From Candidatus Rokuibacteriota bacterium (GTDB lineage Bacteria > Methylomirabilota > Methylomirabilia > Rokubacteriales > JACPHL01): a stretch of 26,283 nucleotides of DNA. Below the pieces are notes generated by a model. It had not been told where the DNA came from and did not search any database. It saw only the letters and a list, made by a program, of their open reading frames with translations. Below are positions 1 through 22,478 of this stretch, in pieces. Positions within the stretch are counted from its first letter, which is position 1; every line of letters begins with the position of its first letter. Both the position numbers and the translations under genes were made by a program. The stretch lies in NCBI GenBank assembly GCA_016188625.1, contig JACPHL010000138.1, positions 1 to 26,283 of the forward strand. The letters are read 5' to 3'.

Positions 1-102
1 ACGATGGACACCACCCTCGTCCCGGCGATCCGGCGGGTCGCGCGCGCCCGGGGGCTCGGCGCCGCCATGGAGTCGGCGCCGGGAACGGAGAGCCGTGGCT
101 GA
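1..102 (+). CDS. C-terminal tail of an unidentified upstream gene
   Basis: Frame 1 is open from the window edge to TGA at 100-102. Almost every codon ends in G or C, as in the real genes downstream, so this is probably the last 33 residues of an upstream protein. The tail (ending GAAMESAPGTESRG) is too short to assign to a family. It overlaps the GTG start of the following cheW by 8 nt, which suggests it belongs to the same operon. Frame 2 is also open here because it runs into cheW, but its third-position bias is poorer. Confidence 0.5.
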   Translation, partial: TMDTTLVPAIRRVARARGLGAAMESAPGTESRG

Positions 103-598
103 GCAGAGCGCGCGGGCGGTCGATCGCCCGACCGGGAGGGTCGGGCTCCCCCTGGTCGTCTTCGTCCTCGACGGGCAGGAGTACGCCCTCCACCTCTCCA
201 GCGTCGAGCGGGTCCTCCCGATGGTGGCCGTGTCGCCGCTTCCGAAGGCCCCGACCATCGCCCTGGGGGTGATCAACCTCCACGGCCAGGTCGTCCCGGT
301 CGTGGACATCCGCCGCCGGTTCGTCCGCCCCTCGCGGGACTACGGCGTGAGCGGTCAGCTGTTGGTGGCCAGGACCAGCCGGCGAGGGCTCGTCCTGCCC
401 GTAGACGAAGTTCTCGGGGTCAGGGAGGTGCCCGTGGAGGGCGTGACCTCAGCGGACGCCGTCCTCCCAGGGATCGGTCACGTCGCCGGGATCGTGGCGC
501 TCGAGGACGGCCTCCTCTTCATCCACGATCTCGACACCTTCCTCTCGCTGGACGAAGAGGGGCAGTTGACCGAGGCCCTCGAGGAGATGGAGGGATGA
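95..598 (+). CDS. cheW: CheW-type chemosensory coupling protein (WspB/FrzA-like)
   Basis: A 167-residue protein made of a single CheW domain (about residues 17-155), the usual length for the family. CheW is a cytoplasmic SH3-like adaptor that links the signalling tip of an MCP to the CheA kinase. The typical pattern is visible: a strand with FVLDGQEYAL, the 'VLGV.N..G.V.PVVDIR' signature as ALGVINLHGQVVPVVDIRRR (about 56-75), and a second half with VDEVLGVREV. The GTG at 95 is the start used. The stop overlaps the ATG of cheR (ATGA at 595-598), so the two are probably translationally coupled. It is the first of two cheW genes in the cluster and the shorter one. No unusual features were seen. 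Confidence 0.93.
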   Translation: MAEQSARAVDRPTGRVGLPLVVFVLDGQEYALHLSSVERVLPMVAVSPLPKAPTIALGVINLHGQVVPVVDIRRRFVRPSRDYGVSGQLLVARTSRRGLVLPVDEVLGVREVPVEGVTSADAVLPGIGHVAGIVALEDGLLFIHDLDTFLSLDEEGQLTEALEEMEG

Positions 599-1989
599 GG
601 CTTTCGGGCGAGGTGTGCCGTGAGGTGCGGGCCCTGATCGCCAGCCGCCTGGGCCTGGACTTCCCGGAGAGCCGCCAGGCCGACCTGGAGCGGGGACTCC
701 TCCGGGCCCTTCGTGCCTCCTCGATCCCAGCGCCGGAGGCGTATCTGACGTGGCTGGCCGCCTTGCCGGACGAGAGCCCGGAGTGGAGGAGGCTGGCCGG
801 GCACCTCACGGTGGGCGAGACCTACTTCTTCCGCGACCGCGCGCTCTTCGAGGCGCTGGAGGGCGAGGTCCTGCCCTCCCTCATTCAGGTCCGCCGGTCG
901 GAGGGCGTGCCCCGCCTCCGGCTCTGGAGCGCCGGGTGCGCCACCGGCGAGGAGCCCTACTCCCTCGCCATCCTGCTGGACCGCCTGCTTCCCGACCGAA
1001 CCGACTGGGCCGTGACGATCCTGGCCACCGACATCAACCCGGTCGCCCTGGAAGCGGCCCGGAGGGCAATCTACCGGGAATGGTCCTTCCGGGAGACGCC
1101 CCAGTGGGTCCGGGACCGGTATTTCCACCGCCGGGGCGCGGAGACCTTCGAGGTGGACCCGGGGATCCGGCGGATGATCACCGTCGTGCCGCTCAACCTG
1201 GCCGAGGACGGCTATCCCTCCGTGGTCACCAACACCACCGCCATGGACCTGATCCTCTGCCGGAACGTCCTCATGTACTTCACCCGTGAGGCTCAACGGG
1301 CGACCGTGGCCCGGCTCCAGCGGGCGCTGGTGAGCGGGGGATGGCTGGCGGTGAGCCCGGCCGAGGCCTCGGCCGAGCTCTTCAGACCGTTGGCTCCCGT
1401 CAGTTTCCCCGGGGCCATCCTCTATCGGACGGACCACGCTTACGTCGTTCCTCCGCTTCCCAGCTGGCAGGCCGACACAGGCTTGCCCGATTCTCCGGCT
1501 CCCTTGCTTTCCGTGCCCATCTCGAGCGACCTGGTCACGCCGCCGTCGCCGGTCACGTCTTCCCTGGAGGAGCAGGCTGAAGCCCTTCCTCACACAGGGA
1601 CGGATCTCCCGCGCGCCCGAGCCCTGGCCGACCAGGGGAAGCTCGAGGAGGCCCGCGAGCTATGCGAGGCCGCGCTGGCGCGGGACCGGCTCGATCCTGA
1701 GACCCACCTCCTGCTGGCCGCGATCTGCCAGGAGCGGGGGGAGATCCCGGCGGCCCTCGAGGCCCTCCGTCGGGCCATCTACCTGGCCCCGGACTCCGCC
1801 CCAGCCCACTTCCTCCTGGGCAGCCTCCTCCTCCGGCAGGGGCAGCAGCGACGCGGCCGGCGATCGCTGGAGACAGTGGTGCACCTGTTGAGTGGGGTTC
1901 CTCGCGATGAGGTCTTGCCCGGGGGCGACGGCCTGACCGCCAGCCGCCTCCTGGAGACAGCCCGGGCGTATCTGGAGCTGCGAGGATGA
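595..1989 (+). CDS. cheR: CheR chemoreceptor methyltransferase fused to a TPR domain (WspC/FrzF-like)
   Basis: A 464-residue protein. Residues about 1-280 are a CheR methyltransferase, which methylates glutamates of MCPs using S-adenosylmethionine. Visible motifs are TVGETYFFRD (the 'T.NET.FFR' block), WSAGCATGEEPYSLAI (SAM-binding motif I), LATDIN, and LILCRNVLMYF. A proline-rich linker (about 290-330) leads to C-terminal tetratricopeptide repeats (about 340-440), for example LEEARELCEAAL and IPAALEALRRAIYLAPDSAPAHFLLG. CheR-TPR fusions are typical of Wsp and Frz chemosensory systems rather than flagellar ones. The MCP in this cluster has no C-terminal CheR-binding pentapeptide, so the TPR region may provide receptor docking (inference). 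The gene overlaps both neighbours by 4 nt (ATGA). Confidence 0.93.
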   Translation: MRLSGEVCREVRALIASRLGLDFPESRQADLERGLLRALRASSIPAPEAYLTWLAALPDESPEWRRLAGHLTVGETYFFRDRALFEALEGEVLPSLIQVRRSEGVPRLRLWSAGCATGEEPYSLAILLDRLLPDRTDWAVTILATDINPVALEAARRAIYREWSFRETPQWVRDRYFHRRGAETFEVDPGIRRMITVVPLNLAEDGYPSVVTNTTAMDLILCRNVLMYFTREAQRATVARLQRALVSGGWLAVSPAEASAELFRPLAPVSFPGAILYRTDHAYVVPPLPSWQADTGLPDSPAPLLSVPISSDLVTPPSPVTSSLEEQAEALPHTGTDLPRARALADQGKLEEARELCEAALARDRLDPETHLLLAAICQERGEIPAALEALRRAIYLAPDSAPAHFLLGSLLLRQGQQRRGRRSLETVVHLLSGVPRDEVLPGGDGLTASRLLETARAYLELRG

Positions 1990-2597
1990 GAGAGGCGGGA
2001 GAGGGGATCGACTGGCAGCAGGCTTACGCCGTGCTGGAGCGGGCCCGCCGGGCCCTGGAGTCCGGGGACGAGCCTCCGGTCGAGGAGGTCCAGCGGATCT
2101 TGAGGGAAAGGGCTCGGGCGCTGGCGCGGCCGCTGGCCGAGGCCCCGACCCCGACCGACGTGGTGGGGCTTCTGGTCTTCGCGCTCGGGGGGGAGCGCTA
2201 CGCGATCGAGACGGCTCACGTCCTGGAGGTGGTCCCTCTCGGGGAGCTGACGCCAGTGCCGGGTGCGCCGGCGCACGTCCTCGGGGTGGTGAACCACCGG
2301 GGGCGGATCCTGCCGGTCATGGACCTCCGAAGGCTGTTAGAGCTGGCCGGGCAAGGGGTTACCGAGGGGGGCCGGGTCGTGGCGGTGGAGGCCGGAGGGA
2401 TGACGTTCGGGATCCTCGCCGACGCTGTAGCAGGCACCGTCCAACTCGGATCTCACGAGGTGGCGCCTCCGCCGGCGAGCCTCGCCGGCGATCGCCTGGC
2501 CTTCATCCGGGGCGTGACCGGCGAGATGGTCGCGGTGCTGGATCTCGAGGCATTGGCCCGGGACCCTCGGATCACCGTGAACGACGAGGTCGGCTGA
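1986..2597 (+). CDS. cheW: CheW-type coupling protein with N-terminal extension (WspD/FrzB-like)
   Basis: A 203-residue protein. Residues about 1-52 form a charged, probably helical extension (IDWQQAYAVLERARRALESG and onward), followed by a CheW domain (about 55-195) with VFALGGERYAIETAHVLEVV and VLGVVNHRGRILPVMDLRRL. A second, longer CheW next to a CheR-TPR gene is the arrangement of WspD in Pseudomonas. The extension may make its coupling role differ from the first CheW, for example by binding a different partner; that is inference. ATG at 1986 overlaps the cheR stop (ATGA). The MCP gene follows after 27 nt. Confidence 0.9.
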   Translation: MREAGEGIDWQQAYAVLERARRALESGDEPPVEEVQRILRERARALARPLAEAPTPTDVVGLLVFALGGERYAIETAHVLEVVPLGELTPVPGAPAHVLGVVNHRGRILPVMDLRRLLELAGQGVTEGGRVVAVEAGGMTFGILADAVAGTVQLGSHEVAPPPASLAGDRLAFIRGVTGEMVAVLDLEALARDPRITVNDEVG

Positions 2598-2624
2598 GCC
2601 GAGCCTCCAAAGAGAGGGTGCGCC

Positions 2625-4097
2625 ATGAGATGGACTGTCGGTCAGCGCGTTGCGGTCGGCTATGCGGTGATCCTCCTGCTCCTCGTGGTGGTGGCGGGGG
2701 TGGGCGCGTATGCGCTCTCGACCATTTCCGGCGCATTTCGGGAGTTGATCCAAGAGCAGGGACGAGACTTGGGGGAGGTCATACTGGCCGATGAGGCGAT
2801 CGACTCGGCCAGCGGGAATTTTCTTCGCTACCTTTTGACTCCCGACGAGAGTTTTCTGAAAGGATGGCAGGACAGCCTCGCCGAGTCGGCTCGTCGCGCG
2901 GCCAACCTTCGCGACACCGGTGCCACGGCAGAATTGAAGGCCGGCTGGGAAGAGGTGCTTCGGGTCCTGAAGGCCTGGGAGGACGCGACGAGGGCCTCGA
3001 TCAACGCGAGGAAGGCCGGCCGTCAGGCCGACGCCCTTCGAATCCTGGTAGAGGAGGTTCGGCCGCTTCGGACGCAACGGGATGCCCTGGTCGCCCGGCT
3101 CATCGGCTTGACACGGGCGCGCACCGAAGAGGGGGCGAGGTCGGCGGTCGCCGCGGCGTCCCGCGCCCTCTGGGCCGTACTCGTCGCCGCTGGGCTCGCT
3201 CTGGCCTCGGGGGTCGTCATCTCCGTAGCGTTGACCCGGTCCATCATCGGTCCCCTGCGCCAGACGATCGGGACCCTGGCCTCCGCCTGCTCTGAGATCC
3301 TGGCGTCCACCACCCAGCAGGCCTCCGGGACGTCGGAACAGGCCACGGCGGTCCAGGAGACCTCCACGACCGTGGACGAGGTCAGGCAGACCGCGCAGGT
3401 CTCGGCCCAGAAGGCCCGGGCCGTGGCCGAGGCCGCGCAGAAGAGCGCCCAGGTCTCCCAGGACGGGCGGCGCGCGGTGGAGGAGAGCGTCAAGGGGATG
3501 CAGGAGACCAAGGCGCGGATGGAGGCCATCGCCGAGCGGATCCTCGCCTTGAGCGAGCAGGGCCAGGCGATCGGGGAGATCATCGCCTCCGTCAACGACC
3601 TCGCCGAGCAGTCGAACCTCCTGGCCGTGAACGCCGCGATCGAGGCGGCCAAGGCCGGGGAGGCGGGGAAGGGGTTCGCGGTGGTGGCGGCGGAGGTCAA
3701 GGCCCTGGCCGAGCAGTCCAAGCAGGCGACGGCGCAGGTGCGGGGGATCCTGAACGAGATCCAGCGGGCCACCCAGGCGGCGGTGATGGCGGCGGAGCAG
3801 GGGGTGAAGGCCTCGGAGGCGGGTGTCGGGGTGGCCGCGCGAGGGGGCGAGGCGATCCGGCTGCTGACCGAGAGCCTGACCGAGTCGGCCCAGGCGGCGC
3901 AGCAGATCCTGGTCTCGGCCCAGCAGCAGGTGGCGGGGGTGGATCAGGTGGCCCTGGCGATGCAGAACATCCAGCAGGCCTCCTCGCAGAACATGGCCTC
4001 GACGCGGCAGGTGGAGCGGGCGGCGCAGGACCTGAACGAGCTGGCCGGGCGATTGAAGGCCCTCGTGGCGGCCTCCGGCAACCAGCGGCCCGGGTGA
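2625..4097 (+). CDS. Methyl-accepting chemotaxis protein, membrane-bound
   Basis: A 490-residue receptor. TM1 is about residues 8-31, followed by a helical periplasmic region of about 150 residues (four-helix-bundle or CHASE3-like in appearance) and TM2 at about 181-203. The cytoplasmic signalling domain follows, with the conserved hairpin tip [20 protein letters not shown] (about 329-348) that binds CheA and CheW. After TM2 the sequence [17 protein letters not shown] starts like HAMP helix 1. It then runs straight into coiled-coil methylation helices, and no 'GDL' joint or second HAMP helix is visible. The C-terminus (ASGNQRPG) lacks an NWETF-type CheR tether. A Shine-Dalgarno-like GAGAGGG lies just upstream of ATG 2625. 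The 3' end converges with the minus-strand toxin gene, 21 nt away. Confidence 0.93.
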
Positions 4098-4118
4098 GGG
4101 AACAGGGGCCGATGAGGT

Positions 4119-4472
4119 CTAAAGGCCGAAGGCAGACTTGAGATGGGAATTCAGCTCGGCGAGAAGCGAAGGGCCGAGGTGGCCGAGCCGTCGTCGAACC
4201 CGCGATCTCGCGATGGTCATGAGCTTATCCAGTCGCACAACCGAGGTCTGTTTCAGCCCAGTCTCTCGAAACTCTGGGTGACCGACAGAGATCAGGAGGC
4301 GGGCGACAGCCACGGGTGCCTCAGGAACGACGGAAGAGAGATACGCGACGATGAGATCAGGTCCGGTGGGCTCCGGAGTCAGGATAACGGCGGGACGGAC
4401 CTGCACGGCGGATAAATCGGTAAATGGGAACGGAACGAGAACCACATCTCCCTTGCGGAGCGGGCGTCTCAA
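4119..4472 (-). CDS. MazF/PemK-family endoribonuclease toxin
   Basis: A 117-residue protein, typical MazF length. The family start is clear: LRKGDVVLVPFPFTDLSAVQ, then VRPAVILT, with later motifs IVAYLSSVVPE and LKQTSVVRLDKLMTI (compare the 'S.v..dki.tl..s.v...iG.l' block). MazF toxins cleave mRNA at short sequences and are neutralised by the partner antitoxin. Translation starts inside the antitoxin stop (4-nt overlap, 4469-4472), the standard toxin-antitoxin layout with the antitoxin first. The gene lies on the strand opposite to the chemosensory cluster and is convergent with the MCP gene. Family assignment is strong; the cleavage specificity cannot be read from the sequence. Confidence 0.9.
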   Translation of the reverse strand: MRRPLRKGDVVLVPFPFTDLSAVQVRPAVILTPEPTGPDLIVAYLSSVVPEAPVAVARLLISVGHPEFRETGLKQTSVVRLDKLMTIARSRVRRRLGHLGPSLLAELNSHLKSAFGL

Positions 4473-4690
4473 ACAGGCTCCCCGTCGTCAGGAGAGTAGA
4501 GATCTTCCACGGGCGCCTCCAGGAACGCGAAGCTCCCCTCATCTTCTGCCACCTTCGCGAGCAGTTCTGCAGGGAGATCATCCTGAACGGTGACCACAAT
4601 GGAGACCCGCTGATGTTCTGGAAGCTCTACCGCGCCAAGCGGCTTGAATACGCCGTCCTCGAAGACAGCCTCGATCGTTCGATGCCCCAT
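4469..4690 (-). CDS. DUF104 (AF2212-like) antitoxin
   Basis: A 73-residue protein beginning IEAVFEDGVFKPLGAVELPE followed by HQRVSIVV, the signature of the DUF104/AF2212-like antitoxin family ('IeAvYEnGvlkPl.plpL.Eg..v.v.v'). The acidic C-terminal half (EDEGSFAFLEAPVEDLYSPD) is the usual toxin-wrapping tail. It is cotranscribed with the MazF-type toxin, overlapping it by 4 nt. A strong purine-rich ribosome site (GGGAGGAAGGAAG) lies immediately before the ATG. Upstream there is a sigma-70-like promoter with a palindrome over its -10, which suggests autoregulation (inference). Confidence 0.88.
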   Translation of the reverse strand: MGHRTIEAVFEDGVFKPLGAVELPEHQRVSIVVTVQDDLPAELLAKVAEDEGSFAFLEAPVEDLYSPDDGEPV

Positions 4691-4724
4691 CTTCCTTCCT
4701 CCCTCAACGGTTCGTCAGAACCTT

Positions 4725-4758
4725 CCATAAACGTATGGGATTTCGAGTCAGGAGTCAA
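4725..4758 (-). promoter_or_regulatory. Promoter and candidate operator of the toxin-antitoxin operon
   Basis: Read on the minus strand, TTGACT (plus 4753-4758) and TACGTT (plus 4730-4735) are separated by 17 bp. A perfect inverted repeat CCATA-AACG-TATGG (4725-4738) covers the -10 element. Its position fits an operator bound by the antitoxin or the toxin-antitoxin complex. The predicted transcript would start about 33 nt before the antitoxin ATG. Confidence 0.5.
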
Positions 4759-4851
4759 GGCTCGCGGCCGCGGGGAATCAGCAGCGGCCCGAGGAGGGAT
4801 GGGCCGGCGGACGAGAGTCTTGCGGGCTTGTCGGAGGGCATAGGCTGAGCC

Positions 4852-7059
4852 GTGGCGAATCGCAGGGACGACCTCAAGGCGCGGCTCCTGGCCACCTTCC
4901 GGGTGGAGGCCGAGGAGCACCTCCAGGCCATCACGGCCAACCTCCTGGCCCTGGACCGCGGGCTCCCTCCCGCCGAGGCTCGCGAGAGGGTGGAGGCCGC
5001 GTTCCGGGCGGTTCACACCCTGAAGGGGGCGGCCCGCTCCGTCAGCCTCACGGACGTGGAGGCCATCTGCCAGGCGTGTGAGGGCGTTCTGAGCCGGATC
5101 ACGCGGGGCCAGCTCATGCTTAGCCAGCCGATCTTGAGTCGTCTCCAGGAAGCGGTGGATGGCGCGGCCCGCCTCCTGGCCGGACGTGGGGACTCCTCGG
5201 CGGTGGGGGAGCTGATCGACCGTCTCGAGCGCGCCGCCGCCGAGCGGGCGGCTGACGCCGCGGGACCCGTCGAGACTCCGGTCCAGCCGGCCGAGGAAGC
5301 GCCGCCCGCGCCGGTCCCTGGCGGGCTCCCGCCCGCCGACACCATCCGGCTGGCCACGGCCAGCCTCGATGCGCTGCTCCTCCAGGCCGAGGACCTCCTG
5401 GTCCCCAAGCTCGCCGCCGAGGAACGGGTGCGGGAGACCAGGGCGCTGGTGGACACGTTGAATCGCTGCCGCGCAGTCATGAATCGAGTCCGGGCCGCGC
5501 AGGGACCTGGCGCTCATGGATCGGACGCCGGCCCGACGGCGGAGCTGGAATCGGGACTGCGGGCGATGGAGGCTCAGGCCCGGGAGCTGTTCCGCCGTCT
5601 CATCCTCGATCAGCGGGCGATCCGCAAAGGGGTGGATGGCCTGCAGGATGAGCTGCGGCGGATGAGGCTCACACCCGCCTCGGTCGTCCTGGACCTCTTC
5701 CCACGGATGGTCCGCGATCTGGCGCGGGAGCACGGCAAAGAGGTGGAGTGGATGGCGCACGGCGCCAGTCTCGAGGTGGATCGGCAGGTCCTGGACGCGA
5801 TGAAGGAGCCCCTGATCCATCTCGTGCGGAACGCCATTGACCACGGGATCGAGCCGCCAGAGGCCCGGGCGCAGGCGGGCAAAGCTCTGCGGGGGCAGGT
5901 GGCCGTGGCCATCGCCTCGCTCGAAGGGGGCCGCATCGAGATCCGTGTGGAGGACGACGGGGGCGGGATCGACCTGGTCCGGGTGAGGGCCGCGGCCGTC
6001 CGGGCTCGCCTCCTGACCGCCGAGGAGGCCGACACCCTGACGGACGACGCCGCCCTGGATCTCGTCTTTCGCTCCGGCCTCAGCACCAGCCCCATCATCA
6101 CCGACCTCTCGGGTCACGGCCTGGGCCTGGCCATCGTGAGGGAGCGGGTGGAGCGGCTCGGGGGCCAGATCCGGATGGAGACGCGGGCCGGCGCCGGGAC
6201 GACGGTGCGGCTGACGCTCCCGGCGACGATCGCCACGTTCCGCGGTCTTCTGGTCCAAGCTGGCGGGCAGGGTTTTCTCCTCCCCACCGAGGCCGTCGAG
6301 CGAGTCATCCGCATCGCCTCGAATGAGATCGAGAGCGTAGAAGGGCGAGAGGCGATCCGCTGGAACGGACATCCCCTCTCCGTCGCCCGGCTCAGCGGGC
6401 TCCTCGGCCTTCCGGAGCAGGCTGACCAGCCCGAGGCAGAGGGCAAGCGGCCGTGCGTGATCGTGGGATCCGGCGAGGAGCGGGTGGGGTGTCTGGTCGA
6501 AGGGATCCTGGGGGACCTGGAGGTGCTGGTCAAGGAGCTCGGGCCGCCGCTGGTCCGGGTCAGGAACATAGCCGGCGCAGGTCTTCTGGGAACCGGTCAG
6601 GTGGTCCTGGTCCTCCGTCCGGCCGATCTCTTGAAGTCGATTCGGGAGCGTCCCCGCCCACCGGCGCCGCTGCCGGTTCCGGAGGAAAAGCGCCGTCACC
6701 CCGTCCTCCTCGTGGTGGACGACTCCATCACCACCCGGACGATGGAGAAGAGCCTCCTGGAGGCGGCGGGCTACCAGGTGCGGGTGGCGGTGGACGGGGT
6801 CGAGGCCTGGACCCTCCTCAAGAGCGAGGAGGTCGATCTCGTGGTGTCGGACGTGGACATGCCCCGGATGGACGGCTTCGAGCTGACGACCCGGATCCGG
6901 GCCGATCGGAAGCTGGCCGAGCTGGCGGTGGTCCTGGTGACGGCGCTCGAATCGCGGGAGGACAAGGAGCGGGGGATCGAGGTGGGCGCCAACGCCTATG
7001 TCATCAAGTCGAGCTTCGACCAGTCGAACCTCCTGGAGATCATCCGCCGGCTGGTGTGA
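4852..7059 (+). CDS. cheA: CheA histidine kinase with C-terminal receiver domain (WspE/FrzE-like)
   Basis: A 735-residue hybrid CheA. Domains in order: HPt (about 5-125) with the phosphorylated histidine in AVHTLKGAAR (His55); a variable linker; a dimerisation region; HATPase (about 310-460) with LVRNAIDHGIEPPEARAQ, VEDDGGGID and SGHGLGLAIVRERVERLGG; CheW-like regulatory domain (about 462-600); and REC (about 620-735) with VVDDSITTR, the phospho-acceptor in VVSDVDMPRMDG, and YVIKSS. No separate P2 domain is obvious. CheA-REC hybrids belong to Wsp, Frz and pilus-type systems, where the attached receiver acts as output or phosphate sink. The start is GTG 4852 with a weak ribosome site. The toxin-antitoxin pair separates it from the upstream che genes, so it needs read-through or its own promoter. 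Confidence 0.94.
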   Translation: MANRRDDLKARLLATFRVEAEEHLQAITANLLALDRGLPPAEARERVEAAFRAVHTLKGAARSVSLTDVEAICQACEGVLSRITRGQLMLSQPILSRLQEAVDGAARLLAGRGDSSAVGELIDRLERAAAERAADAAGPVETPVQPAEEAPPAPVPGGLPPADTIRLATASLDALLLQAEDLLVPKLAAEERVRETRALVDTLNRCRAVMNRVRAAQGPGAHGSDAGPTAELESGLRAMEAQARELFRRLILDQRAIRKGVDGLQDELRRMRLTPASVVLDLFPRMVRDLAREHGKEVEWMAHGASLEVDRQVLDAMKEPLIHLVRNAIDHGIEPPEARAQAGKALRGQVAVAIASLEGGRIEIRVEDDGGGIDLVRVRAAAVRARLLTAEEADTLTDDAALDLVFRSGLSTSPIITDLSGHGLGLAIVRERVERLGGQIRMETRAGAGTTVRLTLPATIATFRGLLVQAGGQGFLLPTEAVERVIRIASNEIESVEGREAIRWNGHPLSVARLSGLLGLPEQADQPEAEGKRPCVIVGSGEERVGCLVEGILGDLEVLVKELGPPLVRVRNIAGAGLLGTGQVVLVLRPADLLKSIRERPRPPAPLPVPEEKRRHPVLLVVDDSITTRTMEKSLLEAAGYQVRVAVDGVEAWTLLKSEEVDLVVSDVDMPRMDGFELTTRIRADRKLAELAVVLVTALESREDKERGIEVGANAYVIKSSFDQSNLLEIIRRLV

Positions 7060-7074
7060 CCCCGGGGAGGGACC

Positions 7075-8118
7075 ATGACCCGTGTCCTGGTGGCGGACGA
7101 TTCGGCGACCGTGCGGGAGTACCTCGCGTACCTGCTGGGTGAGGACCCCGCGCTCGAGGTCGTGGGCACGGCCCGGGACGGCCTCGAGGCCGTGGAGCAG
7201 GCCCAACGCCTCAGGCCCGACATCATCGTCATGGACGTCCACATGCCCCGGATGAACGGCTTCGAGGCGACCCGTCAGGTCATGGAGCGCATCCCCACGC
7301 CCATCGTGATCGTCAGCGCCAGCATCAGCCGGGAGGAGGTGGCGCTGACCTTCGAGGCCCTCAAGGCGGGGGCCCTCACGGTGGTGGACAAGCCCGGCGG
7401 ACCGGATCACCCGAAGCACGCCGAGAGCGCCCGGCGCCTCGTTGAGACGGTCAAGCTGATGGCGGAGGTGAAGGTGGTCCGGCGATGGCCGAGGGGCGAA
7501 CGCCCGGCGCCGCCGGCCCCGCCCGCGGTCAAAGCTGACCGGAAGATCCGGCTTATCGCTATCGGGGCCTCCACCGGCGGGCCTCAGGTGGTTGCCGAAA
7601 TCCTGAGAGGGTTGCCGCGTGAGTTCGGAGCCCCTATCCTCGTTGTTCAGCACATCGCGCCGGGGTTCACCGAAGGGCTGGTCGAGTGGCTCGGCCAGGG
7701 GACTCCTCTGGCGGTGAGGCTGGCCGAGGCGGGCGAGCCGGTCCGCCCGGGCACCGTGTATGTCGCCCGCAATGGCGTTCAGATGGGAATTACGGGGGAT
7801 GGGCGGATTCGCCTGACAAAGGAGCCGGCGGAAGACGGTTTCTGCCCATCGGCTTCTTACCTCTTCCAGTCAGTGGCTCAAGCCTACGGACGCGCTGCGG
7901 TGGGCATCCTTCTCACCGGAATGGGGCGGGACGGCGCCAGAGGGCTCCTCAGGCTCCGGGAAGCCGGGGGGCTGACCATCGCCCAGGACGAGGAGTCGAG
8001 CGTGATCTTCGGGATGCCGGGGGAGGCCGTCCGCCTCGGCGCGGCCGAGCACGTGCTCTCCCCCGAGCAGATCGTCGTGACGATTCGCTCCCTCGTGGGC
8101 GGGTTGATGGGGAGGTGA
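7075..8118 (+). CDS. cheB: CheB protein-glutamate methylesterase (WspF/FrzG-like)
   Basis: A 347-residue protein of normal CheB architecture. The REC domain (about 1-120) has the acidic pair in VLVADDSATVR, phospho-acceptor Asp54 in IIVMDVHMPRMNG, and Lys106 in VVDKPGGP. The methylesterase domain (about 157-345) has the catalytic triad at Ser166 (IGASTGGPQ), His193 (VVQHIAPGF) and Asp286 (LLTGMGRDGARG). It removes methyl groups from MCP glutamates after phosphorylation by CheA. The gene lies 15 nt after cheA with a GGGGAGGGACC ribosome site before the ATG. In Wsp systems this enzyme is the negative feedback arm. No unusual residues were noted. Confidence 0.94.
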   Translation: MTRVLVADDSATVREYLAYLLGEDPALEVVGTARDGLEAVEQAQRLRPDIIVMDVHMPRMNGFEATRQVMERIPTPIVIVSASISREEVALTFEALKAGALTVVDKPGGPDHPKHAESARRLVETVKLMAEVKVVRRWPRGERPAPPAPPAVKADRKIRLIAIGASTGGPQVVAEILRGLPREFGAPILVVQHIAPGFTEGLVEWLGQGTPLAVRLAEAGEPVRPGTVYVARNGVQMGITGDGRIRLTKEPAEDGFCPSASYLFQSVAQAYGRAAVGILLTGMGRDGARGLLRLREAGGLTIAQDEESSVIFGMPGEAVRLGAAEHVLSPEQIVVTIRSLVGGLMGR

Positions 8119-8129: not shown

Positions 8130-10685
8130 ATGGAACGCAAGATCCTCGTGGTGGAGGACAGCCCGACCCAGGCCGAGCGCGTCCGCCTGCTCCTCGAGGG
8201 CGAGGGCTACCGGGTGGACCTGGCCTCGAACGGCCGGGAGGGGCTCGAGCGGGTGCGGACGGCGCCGCCGGACCTCATCATCTCCGACGTGATGATGCCG
8301 GAGATGGACGGCTACGCCTTCTGCCGGGCGGTGAAGTCGGCGGACCCGACGCGGCGGATCCCCTTCGTGCTGCTCACGGGGCGGAGGGGTCCGCTGGACA
8401 TCATCAAGGGGCTCGAGGCCGGGGCCGACAATTTCGTCACGAAGCCCTTCGAGGACGACTACCTCCTGGAGCGCCTCGCGCGGATCTTTGAGCAGCTTGA
8501 GTTCCGCCGGAAGGGCCAGCTCGAGGTCGAGGTGATGATCCACGTCGGCCAGCGGGAGATCGCGGTCTCGGCGGACAAGCAGCAGATCATCGAGCTGCTC
8601 TTCTCGACCTTCGAGGAGCTGGCGCGGGTGAATGACCGGCTCCTCGCGGCCCAGCGCCTGGTGGAGGACTACGCCCGGAACCTCGAGGCGAAGGTCGCGG
8701 AGCGGACCCGGGAGCTCCGCAGCCTCTTCGACGGCGTGCCCATCGGACTCTATCGGACCGGCCCGGACTGGCGCATCCTCGACGCGAACCCCGCCATGGT
8801 GCAGATGCTGGGCTACCCAGACCGGGAGTCTCTGCTGGGGGTCAACGCGGCCGACCTCTATGTGAATGCCGATGATCGCGAACGGTGGAGGACGCTCATC
8901 GAGCGCGAGGGGGTCGCGCGCGGCTTCGAGGTCCTGATGCGGCGCCGAGACGGGTCGCTCTTCTGGCAGCGGATCAACACCCGCGCCGTCCGGGATTCCG
9001 AGGGCCGGCTGCTGCTTTACGAAGGGGCCAGCGAGGACATCACCGATCGGAAGAGGGCCGAGGAGGAGGTCGAGCTCCTGCAGGAGCTGGCGCTCGCCGT
9101 CCGCGAGGCCGAGACGGTCGATGCCGCTTTCACCATGGTCCTCCGCAGGGTCTGCGAGGCGACCGGCTGGGGCTTCGGCGAGGTCTGGGTGCCCGTTCCA
9201 GAGAAGACCCACCTCAAGGTGGATGCGGCGTGGTGCGTCGGCGGGGCTCATCTCGATGCGATGAGGGCCGCCGCTCAATCGATGGTGCTCGCGTACGGGG
9301 AGGGGATCCCGGGTCGCGTCTGGGCGTCGAGGCAGCCGGTCTGGCTCGAGGACGTGACGCAGGACCCCAACTTCCGGCGAGCGACGCTCGCCACCCGGTT
9401 CGGGATGAAGACCGCGATGGCCATCCCCATCCTCATCGGAGACGAGGTCGTCGCGGTCATGATGTTCCTCTCCTTCGAAACCCGGGCCGAAGACGCCCAC
9501 CTGATCCGGCTCGTGTCGGCAGCCGTTGGTCAGCTGGGCACGGCGATCCAGAAGAAGCGCGCCGAGGACACGCTGCACCACACGCAGCGGATGGCCGAGA
9601 TGGGGTACCTCCTCGCCGGCGTCGCCCACGAGCTGAACAACCCGCTCTCGGTCGTGGTCGGCCAGACGGCCCTCCTGCGCCAGGCCCTCGGGGAGGACCC
9701 GCTCGCCGAGCGGACCCGGAAGATCGCCGACGCCGCGGAGCGCTGCTCCCGCATCGTTCGGAACTTCCTCGCCCTGGCCCGCCAGCGCCCGACCGAGCGG
9801 GCCCAGGTCCGGCTCAATCAAGTCGTGCGGGAGGCCGTCGAGCTGCTCGCCTACCAGCTCCGCGTGGACAGCGTCGAGGTGGAGGACGCCCTGGCGCCCG
9901 ACCTGCCGCCCCTCTGGGCCGACGGGCAGCAGCTCCACCAGACGGTGGTCAATCTCATCACCAACGCCCGTCACGCGATGCGCCAGACCCCGCCGCCCCG
10001 CCGCCTGACGCTGGCCACCAGCCACGACCGGGAGGGCCAGCGGGTCCGGCTCCAGGTGAGCGACACCGGCCCCGGGGTCCCGCCGGAGATCGGGGCCAAG
10101 ATCTTCGAGCCCTTCTTCACCACGAAACCCCTGGGGGAGGGGACCGGGCTCGGCCTCTCCATCTCCAGGAGCATCGTCGAGGAGCACGGCGGACAGATCC
10201 GGGTGGAGAGCCGCCCGGGGCAGGGCGCCACCTTCGTGATCGAGCTCCCCGTCGAGCCGGCCCCGGCCGTGGCGCCGGAGCCCGGGCCCGCCGAGGCGCC
10301 GGCCGCGCCCGAGCCCAGGCGGATCCTGGTGGTGGACGACGAGCCCGAGATCGCCGAGCTGCTGGCCGAGGTCCTGACGGCCGAGGGGCACCGGGTCGAG
10401 ACGGTGGGCGACGGGGCCACGGCCCTGGCGCGGCTCCGGGAGCGGGGGTATGATCTGGTCGTGAGCGACCTCCGGATGCCGGGGCTCGACGGCCCGGCCC
10501 TCTACCAGGTAGTCCAGCGCGAGGTCCCGGCGCTGGCGCGGCGCTTCATCTTCATCACCGGCGACGCGCTGGGGCGGCAGGTCAAGGAGTTCCTCGAGCA
10601 GAGCCAGGCCCCCAGCATCGCTAAGCCCTTCTCGTTCGAGGAGGTCCGCCGCGTGGTCCGGCGGGTCCTGGAAGGGGCGCGATGA
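8130..10685 (+). CDS. Hybrid sensor histidine kinase: REC-PAS-GAF-HisKA-HATPase-REC
   Basis: An 851-residue cytoplasmic kinase with no transmembrane segment. Domains: REC1 (about 1-120; VVEDSPTQAERV, Asp53 in IISDVMMPEMDG, FVTKPF); a helical linker ending in a coiled coil; PAS (about 200-320; SLFDGVPIGLYRTGPDW); GAF (about 335-480); HisKA with phospho-histidine in GVAHELNNPLSVVVG; HATPase with LITNARHAM, VSDTGPGVP and GEGTGLGLSISRSIVEEHGG; a Pro/Ala/Glu linker; and REC2 (about 735-851; VVDDEPEIAE, VVSDLRMPGLDG, SIAKPFS). The reading frame is open far upstream into cheB, but ATG 8130 starts exactly at the receiver and is chosen. It lies 11 nt after cheB and overlaps the HD-GYP gene by 4 nt. 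REC1 could accept phosphate from CheA and REC2 could relay it onward (inference). Confidence 0.92.
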   Translation: MERKILVVEDSPTQAERVRLLLEGEGYRVDLASNGREGLERVRTAPPDLIISDVMMPEMDGYAFCRAVKSADPTRRIPFVLLTGRRGPLDIIKGLEAGADNFVTKPFEDDYLLERLARIFEQLEFRRKGQLEVEVMIHVGQREIAVSADKQQIIELLFSTFEELARVNDRLLAAQRLVEDYARNLEAKVAERTRELRSLFDGVPIGLYRTGPDWRILDANPAMVQMLGYPDRESLLGVNAADLYVNADDRERWRTLIEREGVARGFEVLMRRRDGSLFWQRINTRAVRDSEGRLLLYEGASEDITDRKRAEEEVELLQELALAVREAETVDAAFTMVLRRVCEATGWGFGEVWVPVPEKTHLKVDAAWCVGGAHLDAMRAAAQSMVLAYGEGIPGRVWASRQPVWLEDVTQDPNFRRATLATRFGMKTAMAIPILIGDEVVAVMMFLSFETRAEDAHLIRLVSAAVGQLGTAIQKKRAEDTLHHTQRMAEMGYLLAGVAHELNNPLSVVVGQTALLRQALGEDPLAERTRKIADAAERCSRIVRNFLALARQRPTERAQVRLNQVVREAVELLAYQLRVDSVEVEDALAPDLPPLWADGQQLHQTVVNLITNARHAMRQTPPPRRLTLATSHDREGQRVRLQVSDTGPGVPPEIGAKIFEPFFTTKPLGEGTGLGLSISRSIVEEHGGQIRVESRPGQGATFVIELPVEPAPAVAPEPGPAEAPAAPEPRRILVVDDEPEIAELLAEVLTAEGHRVETVGDGATALARLRERGYDLVVSDLRMPGLDGPALYQVVQREVPALARRFIFITGDALGRQVKEFLEQSQAPSIAKPFSFEEVRRVVRRVLEGAR

Positions 10686-11653
10686 TGCGGGAGGGGGCCC
10701 CGGTCGTCCTCGTGGTCGAGGACGAGCCCGTGGTGCGGGAGGTCCTGGCCGAGCAGCTCGGGGAGCTGGGCTACCGGGTCCTGACTGCGGCCTCGGCGGA
10801 GGCGGCGCTGGAGGTCCTGGACGGGACGACGCCGGACCTGGTCCTCACCGATGTCCACATGGGGGGGCTGAGCGGGGTGCAGCTCTGCCGGCGCCTCAAG
10901 GCGGACCCGCGCCTTCAGCTCACCCCGGTGGTGATTCTGACCGGGGTAGCGGACCTGGACTCCCGGCTGGCGGGGCTGGCGGCGGGGGCGGACGATTTCT
11001 TCGCCAAGCCGGTGGAGTTCGTGGAGCTCCAGACCCGGCTGGGGGCGCTCCTGCGGGTGAAGTTCCTCCTGGACCAGCTGGAGCGGGCCGAGGGGGTGAT
11101 CACGACCCTGGGGCTGACGATCGAGGCGCGCGACCCGTACACGGCCGGGCACTGCGAGCGGCTGGCGCGCTATGCCGTGGCCCTCGGAGAGGCCCTGGGG
11201 GTGGATCCACCGACCCTGAAGGCCCTCAAGCTCGGCGGCTACCTCCACGATTTGGGGAAGATCGCCATCCCGGACGGGCTCCTGCTGAAGCCGGGGCGGC
11301 TGGATCCGGAGGAGCGGAAGCGGATCCAGGTGCACCCGGTGGTGGGGGCGGAGCTGGTCGTCGGGCTCAAGACCCTCGAGGCGGTGCGCCCGCTGATCCG
11401 CCACCACCACGAGCGGTGGGACGGCTCGGGGTACCCGGAGGGCCTCGAAGGCAAGGCGATCCCGCTGGGGGCGCGGATCATGGCGGTGGTGGACGTGTAC
11501 GACGCCTTGCGGACGGCGCGGCCGTACAAGCCGGCGCTCCCGCGGGAGGAGGCCATCGGGATCCTGCTGCGGGAGACCGAGGCGGGACTCTGGGAGGCGC
11601 GGATCACCACGACCTTCCTCGAGCTGCTCGAGGAGCTCGACCCCCCTTCCTGA
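10682..11653 (+). CDS. Response regulator with HD-GYP domain (predicted c-di-GMP phosphodiesterase)
   Basis: A 323-residue protein. REC is about 1-125 (VVEDEPVVREV, phospho-acceptor in LVLTDVHMGG, FFAKPVEF). The HD-GYP domain is about 140-300, with the metal-binding and catalytic signature intact: TAGHCERLARYA, YLHDLGKIAIPD, HPVVGAEL, IRHHHERWDGSGYPEG and VVDVYDAL. Such proteins (RpfG-like) hydrolyse c-di-GMP. The ATG overlaps the stop of the hybrid kinase (ATGA), so the two are probably produced together as a phosphorelay pair. It occupies the position at the end of the chemosensory cluster where Wsp systems carry the diguanylate cyclase WspR. Activity is inferred from intact motifs. Confidence 0.92.
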   Translation: MMREGAPVVLVVEDEPVVREVLAEQLGELGYRVLTAASAEAALEVLDGTTPDLVLTDVHMGGLSGVQLCRRLKADPRLQLTPVVILTGVADLDSRLAGLAAGADDFFAKPVEFVELQTRLGALLRVKFLLDQLERAEGVITTLGLTIEARDPYTAGHCERLARYAVALGEALGVDPPTLKALKLGGYLHDLGKIAIPDGLLLKPGRLDPEERKRIQVHPVVGAELVVGLKTLEAVRPLIRHHHERWDGSGYPEGLEGKAIPLGARIMAVVDVYDALRTARPYKPALPREEAIGILLRETEAGLWEARITTTFLELLEELDPPS

Positions 11654-11719: not shown

Positions 11720-12109
11720 ATGGGCGAGCCGGACCCCGCCCTCATCCTGGTCGCCGACGATGATCGCCAGGTCCACCTCCTCGTCCGCGAGATCCTGGAG
11801 CGGGAGGGCTTCCAGATCGTGACGGCGGAGGATGGGGAGCGGGCGCTGGAGCTGGCCGTGGAGCGGCGGCCGGCGCTCATGATCCTGGACATCATGATGC
11901 CGAAGATGGACGGCTACGCCGTGCTGACCCGCCTCCGCGGCCACGCGGCGACCCGGGAGATCCCGGCGATCGTCCTCACCGGCCAGACCGAGGAGATCTA
12001 CCATGGCCTGAGCGAAGGCCTGGGGGCCATCGCCCACCTCACCAAGCCCTTCACCCCCGAGCGCCTGGTCGCGGAGGTCCGCCGGCACCTCCCGGGGAAG
12101 GGTTCGTGA
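11720..12109 (+). CDS. Single-domain response regulator (CheY-like)
   Basis: A 129-residue protein consisting only of a receiver domain: LVADDDRQVH (acidic pocket), phospho-acceptor Asp57 in MILDIMMPKMDGY, Thr in IVLTGQT, and Lys in LTKPFTPE. It has no output domain, so it should act by protein contact, as CheY or PilG/PilH do. It opens a transcription unit with the PilB-like, PilT and PilU genes, whose first gene overlaps its stop by 4 nt (GTGA at 12106-12109). A role in passing chemosensory signals to the pilus motor is a reasonable inference. The ATG is preceded directly by a TATAAT box and no ribosome site. Confidence 0.92.
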   Translation: MGEPDPALILVADDDRQVHLLVREILEREGFQIVTAEDGERALELAVERRPALMILDIMMPKMDGYAVLTRLRGHAATREIPAIVLTGQTEEIYHGLSEGLGAIAHLTKPFTPERLVAEVRRHLPGKGS

Positions 12110-13515
12110 GGCAGGCCGTGGGCGTCCGGATCGGGAAGATCCTGGTCGATCGCGGGTTCATCACCGAGGCCCAGCTCCAGGAGGCCCTGCGCCGCCAGAA
12201 GGAGAGCGGAGGGCGCGTCGGCGAGATCCTGATCGAGATGGGCGCGCTGACCCAGGACCAGCTCAACTGGGCCCTGGGCGAGCAGCTCGGTCTCCCGTAC
12301 GCTGAGCTCTCCCAGGAGATGGTGGACCTGGAGGCGGCCCGTGCCCTCCCCGAGGAGCTGCTCCGGCGCTACCAGGCCCTGCCCATCTTGAAGGTGGGGA
12401 ACGAGCTGACGGTGACCCTGGCCGACCCCACCAACCGGCAGGCGGTGGCCGACATCGAGGCCCTCACCGGCGCCAGGGTGACGGTGGCGATCGCCTCGGC
12501 GGCCGTCATCACCCACCTCCTCGACCTGGCCTTCCCACCGGCGATGGTGCGGGAGGGGGTCCGCTATTGCGAGATCTGCCCGCCGGGGTACCAGCAGCCC
12601 GAGGCCCTGACGCGCGACACGAGCGGCGTCGCCGCGGTCTACGCCTTGCTCCTGGCGGCGGTGCGGGAGCACGCGACCGAGATCCACATCGAGCCCCGGG
12701 AGGCGGAGATCCGGGTGCGCTACCGGGTGCCGGGAGGGCTCAGGGAGCCCGCGAGGTTTCCGGCCCACCTCGGCGGCGCGATCGCCACCCGCCTGCGGAT
12801 CCTGGCCGGGGTGCGCCCGGAGCACGGATGGCAGCGGAGCCGGATGCGGACCCGGCTCGACGAGCAGGAGCTCGAGCTCGAGCTGCTCTTCCTCCCGACC
12901 CGGCGGGGCGAGGCGATCACCATCTGGCTTCGCCGCCGGGACCTCGGCCCGCCCGATCTCGAACAGCTCGGCCTGCCGGCCCGCGCCGGCAAGACGCTGA
13001 CCCGGTTCCTCCGAGACGGCCGCGGGCTCTTCCTGGTGTCGTCGCCCGACCCGGGAGGCCTGGCGGCCGGCCTCTACGCCCTGGCCCGGACAGCCGCCAG
13101 GGAGGGGAAGCGGGTCGTCACGGTGGAGCGGGTGGCCGCCTTCGAGGTGGCCGACTTCGTCCAGGTGGAGATCGAGGACGGGATCGAGAGGGCCACCATC
13201 GAGGCCCTCGCTCGCCCGCCGGAGGTGGCGCTCGTGGAGGACGTGAGCGCCGGGGCGGTCTGCCTGGCCGCCGCCCGGGCCGCGGAGCGGGGGAGCCTGG
13301 TGATCGGCGGGCTCCCGTTCGCGACCCCCTCCACGGCCTGGCAGCACCTCCTCTCCCTCGACCTCCCCCGCCCGCTCCTGGCCGCCTCGCTGCGGGCGCT
13401 CCTGACCGTCCAGCGGGAGGAGGAGCGGTGGGCGAGCGCGCTCTTTCCCGTCAGCGATCGCACCCGGCGCCGCCTCATTCAGGGGCCGGTCCCGTGGACA
13501 TTGCCGACCTCCTGA
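12106..13515 (+). CDS. PilB/GspE-like protein with MshEN domain and degenerate (pseudo) ATPase domain
   Basis: A 469-residue protein. Residues 7-62 carry two consecutive MshEN-type motifs (RIGKILVDRGFITEAQLQEA and RVGEILIEMGALTQDQLNWA), the element that binds c-di-GMP in MshE/PilB proteins. The rest of an MshEN/T2SSE_N domain runs to about 143. Residues 170-450 align with the PilB/GspE ATPase (TEIHIEP, IRVRYRVPGGLRE, ATRLRILAGV), but the functional motifs are replaced. Walker A reads VSSPDPGGLAAG, the Asp-box region is TVERVAAFE, Walker B is PEVALVEDVSAG, and the His-box region is RGSLVIGGLPFATPSTAW. The C-terminal tetracysteine zinc site is absent. The frame is intact with normal codon use, so it looks like a functional pseudo-ATPase rather than a decayed gene. 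It overlaps the response regulator upstream and pilT downstream. Confidence 0.85.
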   Translation: MRQAVGVRIGKILVDRGFITEAQLQEALRRQKESGGRVGEILIEMGALTQDQLNWALGEQLGLPYAELSQEMVDLEAARALPEELLRRYQALPILKVGNELTVTLADPTNRQAVADIEALTGARVTVAIASAAVITHLLDLAFPPAMVREGVRYCEICPPGYQQPEALTRDTSGVAAVYALLLAAVREHATEIHIEPREAEIRVRYRVPGGLREPARFPAHLGGAIATRLRILAGVRPEHGWQRSRMRTRLDEQELELELLFLPTRRGEAITIWLRRRDLGPPDLEQLGLPARAGKTLTRFLRDGRGLFLVSSPDPGGLAAGLYALARTAAREGKRVVTVERVAAFEVADFVQVEIEDGIERATIEALARPPEVALVEDVSAGAVCLAAARAAERGSLVIGGLPFATPSTAWQHLLSLDLPRPLLAASLRALLTVQREEERWASALFPVSDRTRRRLIQGPVPWTLPTS

Positions 13516-14546
13516 TCCAGACCAAGGAGCGCGGGGCCTCCGACCTCCACCTCTCAGCGGGGTCACCCCCCATGATTCGTCTTCATGGTGTGATGACGCC
13601 GCTCGATGGAGCGCCGCTGGGGCGTGAGGACGTCCACCGGATGATCTACGAGGTCCTGAACGACGACCAGCGGCGGATCTTCGAGGAGCAGCGCGATCTG
13701 GACTTCGCCATCGAGCTGGGAGACGTCGCCCGCTTCCGGGTCAATGTCTTTCACCAGCGCAACGGCGAAGGGGCGGTCTTCCGGGTCGTCCCCACCCAGA
13801 TCCGCTCCTTCCAGGAGCTGGGGCTCCCGGACATCGTGAAGACCCTCGCCACCCGGGAGAACGGCCTGGTCCTGGTGACCGGCCCCACGGGGAGCGGGAA
13901 GTCCACGACGTTGGCGGCCATGGTGGACCTGATCAACTCGACGCAGAAGAAGCATATCATCACGCTGGAGGATCCCATCGAGTTCGTCCACCGCTCCAAG
14001 AACTCGCTGGTGAACCAGCGCGAGATCGGCCCCCACACCCGCTCCTTCGCCACCGCGCTCAGGGCGGCCCTCCGCGAGGACCCGGACGTGATCCTGGTGG
14101 GGGAGATGCGGGACCTCGAGACGATCAGCCTCGCCCTGACCGCCGCCGAGACCGGCCACCTCGTCCTGGCCACCCTCCACACCAAGAGCGCCCCGAAGAC
14201 GATCGACCGGGTCATCGACGCCTTCCCCCCGGCCCAGCAGCAGCAGATCCGGACCATGCTCGCCGAGTCCCTCCAGGGGGTGATCTCCCAGATGCTCCTC
14301 CCCACCCGCGACGGCAAGGGGCGGGTGGCGGCGCTGGAGATCATGGTGGCCACGATCGCCATCCGGAATCTGATCCGGGAGGCGAAGATCCACCAGATGC
14401 CCTCGGCGATCCAGACCGGGACCCAGCTCGGGATGCAGAGCATCGAGCAGTCCCTCCGGAACCTGATCATGCAGGGACGGGTCGCCAAGGACCTGGCCGA
14501 GGCGCTCCTCCAGTCGAGCGCGGCCGGGACGAAGCCCCAGGGATGA
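13494..14546 (+). CDS. pilT: Type IV pilus retraction ATPase PilT
   Basis: A 350-residue protein, normal PilT length. The N-terminal PAS-like domain begins DIADLLIQTKERGASDLHLS. The RecA-like motor has Walker A GPTGSGKS (130-137), Asp box ITLEDPIEFV, Walker B DPDVILVGEMRD, His box TGHLVLATLHT, and the PilT-specific AIRNLIRE (289-296). PilT powers pilus disassembly at the inner membrane base. The frame is open much further upstream, but GTG 13494 gives the canonical N-terminus and overlaps the pseudo-ATPase gene by 22 nt. Its stop overlaps the ATG of the pilU-like gene. All catalytic motifs are intact, in contrast to the preceding gene. Confidence 0.93.
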   Translation: MDIADLLIQTKERGASDLHLSAGSPPMIRLHGVMTPLDGAPLGREDVHRMIYEVLNDDQRRIFEEQRDLDFAIELGDVARFRVNVFHQRNGEGAVFRVVPTQIRSFQELGLPDIVKTLATRENGLVLVTGPTGSGKSTTLAAMVDLINSTQKKHIITLEDPIEFVHRSKNSLVNQREIGPHTRSFATALRAALREDPDVILVGEMRDLETISLALTAAETGHLVLATLHTKSAPKTIDRVIDAFPPAQQQQIRTMLAESLQGVISQMLLPTRDGKGRVAALEIMVATIAIRNLIREAKIHQMPSAIQTGTQLGMQSIEQSLRNLIMQGRVAKDLAEALLQSSAAGTKPQG

Positions 14547-15607
14547 TGCTCGACCAGCTCCTCCGGACGATGGTGGAGGCCGGCGCCTCCGATCTCTACC
14601 TGGTCGGGATGAGCCCGCCGCGGCTCCGCGTCGAGGGGGTCACCCGCGTCGTGGACGGTGCCGCCCCGCTCTCCGGCCAGGACCTCGAGGCCCTGCTCGC
14701 CGAGGCGCTGGACGAGGGGCGGCGGCGCCGGTTCACCGAGGCCCGCGAGCTGAACACCGCCGTGGTGCGCCCGGGCCTCGGACGGTTCCGGCTCAACTGC
14801 TACCGGGCCCTCGGCTCGGTGGGGATGGTGCTCCGCCGGGTGCGGGAGGAGGTCCCCCCCCTGGAGGCCCTCGGGCTCCCCCTGCGCCTCGGGGACCTCA
14901 CGCTCGAGCGGCAAGGGCTCATCCTGGTGGTCGGGCCGGCCGGGACCGGGAAGTCCACGACCCTGGCCGCGATGATCGACTACCGGAGCGCGAACCGCCA
15001 TGGCCACATCGTCACGGTCGAGGACCCTATCGAGTTCGTCCTCCCCCACCGCCAGAGCGTGGTCTCCCAGCGGGAGGTCGGCATCGACACCGCCTCCTTC
15101 GAGGCGGCCCTGACGAGCGTCCTCCGGCAGGCCCCCGACGTCATCTTCATCGGCGAGCTCCGGGAGTCCGGGACCGTCACGGCCGCGCTCCACGCCGCCG
15201 AGACCGGCCACCTCGTCCTCTCGACGCTCCATGCCACCAACGCGACCCAGGCGGTGGAGCGGCTCCTCCACTTCTTCCCCACGGAGGTTCAGCAGATCGT
15301 CCTCCTCCAGCTCTCGCTGGTCCTCCGGGCCATCATCGCTCAGCGGCTGGTCCCCGGGGCCGATGGCGCGGGGCGGATCCCGGCGCTCGAGATCATGCTG
15401 GGGACGTCGCGGATCCAGGCCCTGATCCGCCGGGGGGAGCTGGAGGGGCTACGGGCTGCGATCGAGGAGGGGGTGCAGGACGGCCTCCAGAGCTTCGACC
15501 AGGCCCTCTTCGCCCTCTACCGGGAGGGAAAGGTGAGCGCCGAGGAGGCGGTCCAGTTCGCCGACAGCCCCAACAACCTCCGCCTCCGGATCAGGGGCAT
15601 CCGCTGA
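14543..15607 (+). CDS. pilU: PilT-family ATPase, PilU-like accessory retraction motor
   Basis: A 354-residue protein paralogous to the preceding PilT. Walker A is GPAGTGKS (131-138), the Asp box is VTVEDPIEFV, Walker B is APDVIFIGELRE, and the His box is TGHLVLSTLHA. The C-terminus SFDQALFALYREGKVSAEEA followed by ADSPNNLRLRI matches the PilU type rather than PilT (AIRNLIRE is replaced by RIQALIRR). PilU works with PilT to give high-force retraction. The start ATGATG overlaps the pilT stop. No pilin, PilC, PilQ or PilMNOP genes are in the window, so the pilus itself must be encoded elsewhere. Confidence 0.88.
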   Translation: MMLDQLLRTMVEAGASDLYLVGMSPPRLRVEGVTRVVDGAAPLSGQDLEALLAEALDEGRRRRFTEARELNTAVVRPGLGRFRLNCYRALGSVGMVLRRVREEVPPLEALGLPLRLGDLTLERQGLILVVGPAGTGKSTTLAAMIDYRSANRHGHIVTVEDPIEFVLPHRQSVVSQREVGIDTASFEAALTSVLRQAPDVIFIGELRESGTVTAALHAAETGHLVLSTLHATNATQAVERLLHFFPTEVQQIVLLQLSLVLRAIIAQRLVPGADGAGRIPALEIMLGTSRIQALIRRGELEGLRAAIEEGVQDGLQSFDQALFALYREGKVSAEEAVQFADSPNNLRLRIRGIR

Positions 15608-16975: not shown

Positions 16976-17030
16976 CCGTTAGTCCCGGCCACATGCGGCA
17001 GCCACAGACGGCCTTTCGCCCGCGTCCGTG

Positions 17031-19792: not shown

Positions 19793-19865
19793 CCGCACGA
19801 GGTGCGACTTAGCGCGTCGGGGCTGAAGGTGTCAAGGAGTATCATCAGCCGAGAGGAGGATGGCC

Positions 19866-21634: not shown

Positions 21635-21779
21635 TGCCCCGAGTCGGTTTAGGGAGCGGGCCTAGCGCTTCAGAGAGTGGCGTCGGCTAGGAGGAGGATG
21701 GCCATGGTCAGTAAGCGAGGCGTGAAGAAGAAGGCGGCGGCGAAAAGGCCGGCCGCGCGAGCAAAACGCGCGGCGCCTC

Positions 21780-22351: not shown

Positions 22352-22478
22352 GGCCAAGGAGGCCCATCAGGCGCCCTGCGTTACCTCCAGCTTCACGAGC
22401 AGGAGCGAGTCACAGGTCGCCGGGGTGCTCGCCCTGACCACCTCGCCTCAGGCTGGGGGTCGGGGTGGAGTCGGCGAG

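Follow-up and report, generated by a model that had tools for sequence, protein, structure and literature searches.

Why would a bacterium keep, directly in front of two pilus retraction ATPases, a gene for a PilB-like protein from which every catalytic motif is missing? This question was raised by a 26,283-nucleotide stretch of DNA from a Candidatus Rokuibacteriota bacterium (hereafter referred to as the window), in which an initial annotation had placed a pseudo-ATPase of the PilB/GspE type at 12106-13515. Pfam, TIGR02538, the predicted fold and motif alignment confirmed this identification (the protein is hereafter referred to as pseudo-PilB). In our judgement, there is about an even chance that pseudo-PilB is a conserved, dead PilB paralogue kept as a regulator, relaying receiver and c-di-GMP input to the PilT/PilU retraction module. 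The relevant features of the window are as follows:

2..8118, + strand: chemosensory cluster of CheW, CheR-TPR, CheW, MCP, an unknown protein of 139 aa, CheA-REC and CheB (Pfam, NCBIfam).
10682..11653, + strand: REC-HD-GYP response regulator, predicted c-di-GMP phosphodiesterase (PF13487, PF00072; NosR-family match).
11720..12109, + strand: CheY-like single-domain receiver, 129 aa (Response_reg, 90.7 bits).
12106..13515, + strand: pseudo-PilB ORF (Pfam, NCBIfam, AlphaFold2, structural matches), with domains MshEN 1-145, linker 146-171, N2D about 172-290, dead RecA-like domain about 291-440 and a short tail.
12127..12285, + strand: tandem MshEN c-di-GMP motifs, residues 8-60, RIGKILVDRGFITEAQLQEALRRQ-KESGG-RVGEILIEMGALTQDQLNWALGEQ (published relaxed 24-5-24 motif).
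13030..13083, + strand: former Walker A, lysine gone, residues 309-326, FLVSSPDPGGLAAGLYAL (alignment with PilB, PilT and PilU).
13216..13260, + strand: former Walker B, GE replaced by ED, residues 371-385, PPEVALVEDVSAGAV (alignment).
13294..13335, + strand: former His box, histidine gone, residues 397-410, SLVIGGLPFATPST (alignment).
13494..14546, + strand: PilT (TIGR01420, 494 bits; motifs GPTGSGKST and DPDVILVGEMRD intact).
14543..15607, + strand: PilU-like second retraction ATPase (TIGR01420, 392 bits; Walker A GPAGTGKST intact).

The pseudo-PilB ORF runs from a GTG start at 12106 to a stop at 13515 and encodes 469 aa. At 68% GC, the strand antisense to this ORF is itself open for 522 aa, so the open frame alone is little proof of coding. 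Codon usage provides better evidence: GC3 is 0.95-0.97 throughout the dead ATPase domain, matching the 0.94 of PilT, and the codon-position composition of this domain is that of the neighbouring genes. The ORF overlaps the receiver gene by 4 nt and PilT (GTG at 13494) by 22 nt. Coordinates, GC3 and overlaps agree with the earlier description of an unbroken frame with normal codon bias and tight junctions on both sides.

Both Pfam profiles, T2SSE (79.9 bits over residues 179-433) and MshEN (62 bits over 61-145), gave matches, as did the NCBIfam type_IV_pilB model (TIGR02538; E=1.4e-44, residues 9-441), with a score of 152.7 bits, far below the equivalog cut-off of 675.65. Pseudo-PilB was absent from the NCBIfam matches to TIGR01420 (PilT/PilU), in which its two neighbours were present. 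An AlphaFold2 model built with a 10-row alignment had a mean pLDDT of 79 and a pTM of 0.51 and showed the linker, residues 146-171, as disordered; as this alignment was drawn from intact PilB relatives, part of the fold signal is theirs. In Foldseek and VIA-align comparisons, the modelled N2D and RecA domains matched PilB structures 5tsh_E and 5oiu_B with a Z score of 27.1 over 297-299 residues, and residues 4-143 matched c-di-GMP-bound MshE (5htl_B; Z 16.9 over 138 residues) and PilF GSPII-B (Z 16.5). Pseudo-PilB has the PilB-type succession of MshEN/N1D, N2D and RecA-like C-terminal domain, and the model adopts the PilB fold.

When pseudo-PilB was aligned with the PilT and PilU of its operon and with the genome's intact PilB, none of the motifs required for catalysis proved to have survived. 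Walker A GPTGSGKTT is replaced by SPDPGGLAA, with loss of the lysine; the Asp box TIEEPVEY by TVERVAAF; Walker B DPDVIMVGEIRD by PPEVALVEDVSA, its core VGEIRD becoming VEDVSA (within LVEDVSA), with loss of the glutamate; and the His box GHLVFSTLHTND by GSLVIGGLPFAT, its core STLHTND becoming GGLPFAT (within LVIGGLPF). Both CxxC pairs of the zinc tetracysteine site and the C-terminal ~100 residues are also missing. The losses listed in the initial annotation (Walker A, Asp box, Walker B, His box and zinc cysteines) were thus all found again, and the alignment adds the N2D arginines (DIRVST replaced by ELELLF, VVMRLL by ITIWLR). In PilT-family ATPases, these arginines face the nucleotide of the neighbouring subunit. 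Their loss would prevent pseudo-PilB from serving a neighbouring subunit's nucleotide, and argues against a productive mixed ring containing this protein.

We investigated whether these losses are peculiar to the window, by protein searches covering 95 genomes of the class and phylum. Pseudo-PilB was carried by only four of them: that of the window and three others (G002, G003 and G035). The orthologues in G002 (54% identity to the window protein) and G003 (53%) are clear, come from two further families, and have full-length frames devoid of all catalytic motifs. The same losses affect every catalytic position in three orthologues that are 41-54% identical, and the replacements themselves, LVED(V/L) at the lost Walker B and GGL.F within the lost motifs, are common to the window, G002 and G003. 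The fourth, more diverged member (G035 contig C203, 518 aa, 27%) was located through its neighbouring PilT; its Walker A reads GPPRAGGSTT, and it retains a cysteine-free C-terminal segment. A profile of the four members gave 647-787 bits for the members themselves, a range that is high by construction, and no more than 250 bits for the next genome matches. No P-loop loss was found in the 26 next-best loci fetched with this profile, all of which have a P-loop. In a single scan of genome contigs for relatives outside the phylum, the matches were two records of intact PilB and one match to MshEN alone; viral contigs yielded only small MshEN-type proteins or intact PilB. In a phylogenetic tree with 31 PilB sequences, the four pseudo sequences formed a single branch (99/95), in which the position of G035 is less certain because its branch is very long (5.15). 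The best explanation is that the loss of ATP binding and hydrolysis would predate the separation of the families now carrying pseudo-PilB.

Nei-Gojobori estimates pointed to purifying selection. Accompanying p-values, based on rounded proportions and on an assumed 30/70 split of sites, are approximate. For pseudo-PilB, dN was 0.37 and dS 1.05 between the window and G002 (ratio about 0.35), and 0.43 and 0.71 between the window and G003 (ratio about 0.6); these ratios are probably upper bounds, because synonymous change is limited at a GC3 near 0.95. The neighbouring genes, compared between the window and G003, gave 0.13 and 0.70 for PilT, 0.32 and 0.70 for PilU (ratio 0.46) and 0.41 and 0.58 for the receiver (ratio 0.7). 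For the dead RecA domain alone, pN was 0.27 versus a pS of 0.59 between the window and G002, at 54% identity. Recent decay, considered as an explanation of the missing motifs, is ruled out by the G002 and G003 orthologues, which have the same losses, and by a pN well below pS. The initial annotation had named three observations that would undermine it: orthologues with intact Walker motifs, dN/dS near 1 and a model without the PilB fold. The orthologues identified among the 95 genomes had no intact Walker motifs, and neither the ratios nor the fold refuted it, so that the status of pseudo-PilB as a maintained pseudo-ATPase is supported.

A separate canonical pilB, for which a search had been recommended, is present in the genome of the window, on contig C46, followed by PilC. 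It is only about 28% identical to pseudo-PilB, and its presence with PilC makes the pilus machine independent of pseudo-PilB for ATP. Other PilB-like sequences were encountered. In the same genome, one more PilB-like protein (contig C186, 4019-4864) is truncated where the contig stops, so that just its N-terminal part is present; its MshEN region contains a repeated GERLSMTLKRLGLVSEEQLLDFLS segment. Contig C161 of this genome has another MshEN-coding stretch (593-850) with an in-frame TAG. In G002 (contig C413, 1160-3025), an otherwise canonical PilB adjoining PilT has the Walker A sequence GPTGSAKST, with G replaced by A before the lysine; this is a milder change, unless the sequence is in error there.

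The genes around pseudo-PilB point to retraction. The gene order in the window is CheW, CheR, CheW, MCP, unknown, CheA-REC, CheB, hybrid kinase, REC-HD-GYP, REC, pseudo-PilB, PilT, PilU, a context of Pil-Chp type in which chemosensory genes adjoin a lone receiver and pilus motors. The intact PilT motifs and PilU Walker A agree with the original observation that pseudo-PilB directly precedes active PilT and PilU. The order REC, pseudo-PilB, PilT, PilU is found in the window, G003 and G035, all three genomes with sufficiently long contigs, with the receiver gene directly upstream of pseudo-PilB in each; the G035 receiver is of a different type from that of the window. The PilT of the window is 81% identical, and the PilU-like protein 60% identical, to the copies at the same place in G003. 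In G002, REC is fused to pseudo-PilB in a single 592-aa frame, just after which the contig stops; this fusion is the strongest hint that receiver and pseudo-PilB touch directly. No chemosensory genes were found beside pseudo-PilB in G002 and G003, on contigs of just 5.4 and 5.8 kb. The initial annotation mentioned neither the link to the receiver, which takes the form of an operon in three genomes and of a fusion in the fourth, nor the chemosensory context. The PilT proteins of the pseudo-PilB operons also group together (96/69), and their sister group consists of the PilT of four genomes (L159-L162), encoded in PilT-PilU-like pairs with no PilB upstream. This grouping ties pseudo-PilB to the retraction pair. 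In many other relatives, canonical PilB lies directly 5' of PilT.

The N-terminal domain of the window protein has features of a c-di-GMP receptor. The MshE c-di-GMP motif NF053729 matched residues 8-60 with 69.8 bits, and the two 24-residue motifs, separated by a 5-residue spacer, both satisfy the relaxed motif and differ from the strict consensus only in having F11 and A11 (consensus and relaxed motif from PMC5013675 and PMC11731258). The intact PilB on C46 departs further from the motif, mainly in motif II. The tandem motifs are therefore intact, as first reported, and the window protein likely binds c-di-GMP. The relaxed motif is missed at one position in G002 (D10 in motif I) and at two in G003 (Q1 and L24); G035 no longer has motif I, and its motif II satisfies the relaxed form. 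Perfect conservation of the motif may not be needed (PMC5013675). With imperfect motifs in the other members, binding across the group is doubtful, and c-di-GMP may be an input in some members only. For the window protein, the motifs support the proposed responsiveness to c-di-GMP; for the group, support is weak.

Inheritance together with the receiver gene and the retraction motors suggests that pseudo-PilB carries signals to those motors. The adjacent chemosensory kinase would phosphorylate the receiver, which would act on pseudo-PilB by direct contact; in the window organism, c-di-GMP at the MshEN domain would be a second input, its level possibly set by the neighbouring HD-GYP protein. The dead RecA/N2D body would act as an adaptor on the PilT/PilU motor or the PilC platform and set when retraction engages. 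As its own P-loop and N2D arginines are both gone, pseudo-PilB should be a scaffold or clutch rather than a working ring subunit. In its fullest form, this would be a new pilus control element, a dead PilB with two inputs (receiver phosphorylation and c-di-GMP) acting as a clutch on PilT/PilU and providing chemosensory control of retraction through protein contact, a tentative proposal that we regard as possible rather than probable.

In line with the initial annotation, which proposed entry into motor rings or competition with PilB, pseudo-PilB might instead join PilB hexamers or occupy their seat on PilC, blocking extension in response to c-di-GMP or the phosphorylated receiver. It shares the fold and the N2D/RecA body of PilB, an intact PilB-PilC pair exists in the genome, and, given the position of canonical PilB before PilT in many relatives, it may hold PilB's place in the operon. 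However, the genes travelling with it are PilT and PilU rather than PilB and PilC, and its identity to the genome's own PilB is low, which makes such competition unlikely. Pseudo-PilB might also be a signalling form that is always free of nucleotide and is sensed by a different system, with an output unrelated to motor rings. Myxococcus xanthus PilB provides a precedent: its Walker A mutant signals in the absence of pili, and its active state is proposed to be the one without nucleotide (PMC5544727). The chemosensory genes adjoining the unit would fit such an output, but the conserved partners are retraction motors and no exopolysaccharide genes were recognised within the window; we consider this reading quite improbable.

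Identity between the window and G003 falls from 0.67 in MshEN_C to 0.45 in the RecA domain and 0.28 in the tail, as might be expected if MshEN and N2D alone mattered and the dead RecA domain were a structural remnant under weak constraint. The low pN of that domain relative to pS, its identity to G002 and the replacements common to the close members within its lost motifs speak against this, and we rate it as decidedly improbable. A decaying pseudogene or an assembly error would account for the loss of all catalytic motifs, but is scarcely credible: it is already contradicted by three other genomes, in which the frame is full-length and shows the same losses, and the ORF retains pN well below pS, a neighbour-like GC3 and its overlaps with the receiver gene and PilT.

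The reading of pseudo-PilB as a regulator of the retraction module can be set against known systems. Pseudo-PilB shares the MshEN, N2D and RecA-like architecture, the fold and the tandem 24-residue c-di-GMP motifs of PilB, MshE and Thermus thermophilus PilF (TIGR02538; 5tsh, 5oiu, 5htl), and is placed before pilT as in pilB-pilT operons, but differs from these proteins in the absence of the P-loop lysine, the Walker B glutamate, the Asp and His boxes, the N2D arginines, the zinc cysteines and the C-terminal ~100 residues. An ATPase-deficient form of M. xanthus PilB, which also has MshEN motifs, still signals, so that signalling is separable from ATPase activity, and its nucleotide-free form has been proposed to regulate exopolysaccharide (PMC5544727); that protein is an active ATPase inactivated by laboratory mutation, whereas the inactivity of pseudo-PilB is natural and conserved. 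Acting jointly with PilU, PilT with mutated Walker motifs remains able to support retraction (reviewed in PMC11656802). These two sets of findings make a non-hydrolysing partner plausible. Bd2402-like response regulators (PMC5013675) combine a receiver with an MshEN c-di-GMP receptor, like the G002 fusion, and differ from pseudo-PilB, which is flanked by PilT and PilU. Pil-Chp systems with the single-domain regulators PilG and PilH (reviewed in PMC11656802) likewise associate CheW, CheR, MCP, CheA and CheB with a lone receiver and retraction motors; here, in contrast, pseudo-PilB is inserted between the receiver and the motors, and the unit adjoins an HD-GYP response regulator. A literature search of open PMC papers found no PilB/GspE pseudo-ATPase. 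Pseudo-PilB would be a natural, conserved pilus motor paralogue retained for signalling only. To our knowledge, the action of chemosensory receivers on pilus motors is poorly understood; the natural fusion of a receiver to a dead PilB, together with the operon containing PilT and PilU, points to a direct, testable physical link.

Three further features of the window were recorded. A PilZ-domain protein encoded near the pilus operon (17028-17537) is a second likely c-di-GMP receptor. The ORF between MCP and CheA (4424-4843, 139 aa) has no Pfam or NCBIfam match and a GC3 of 0.68, below that of its neighbours. Finally, two DUF1326 proteins are encoded close together, at 19860-20576 and 21677-22864.
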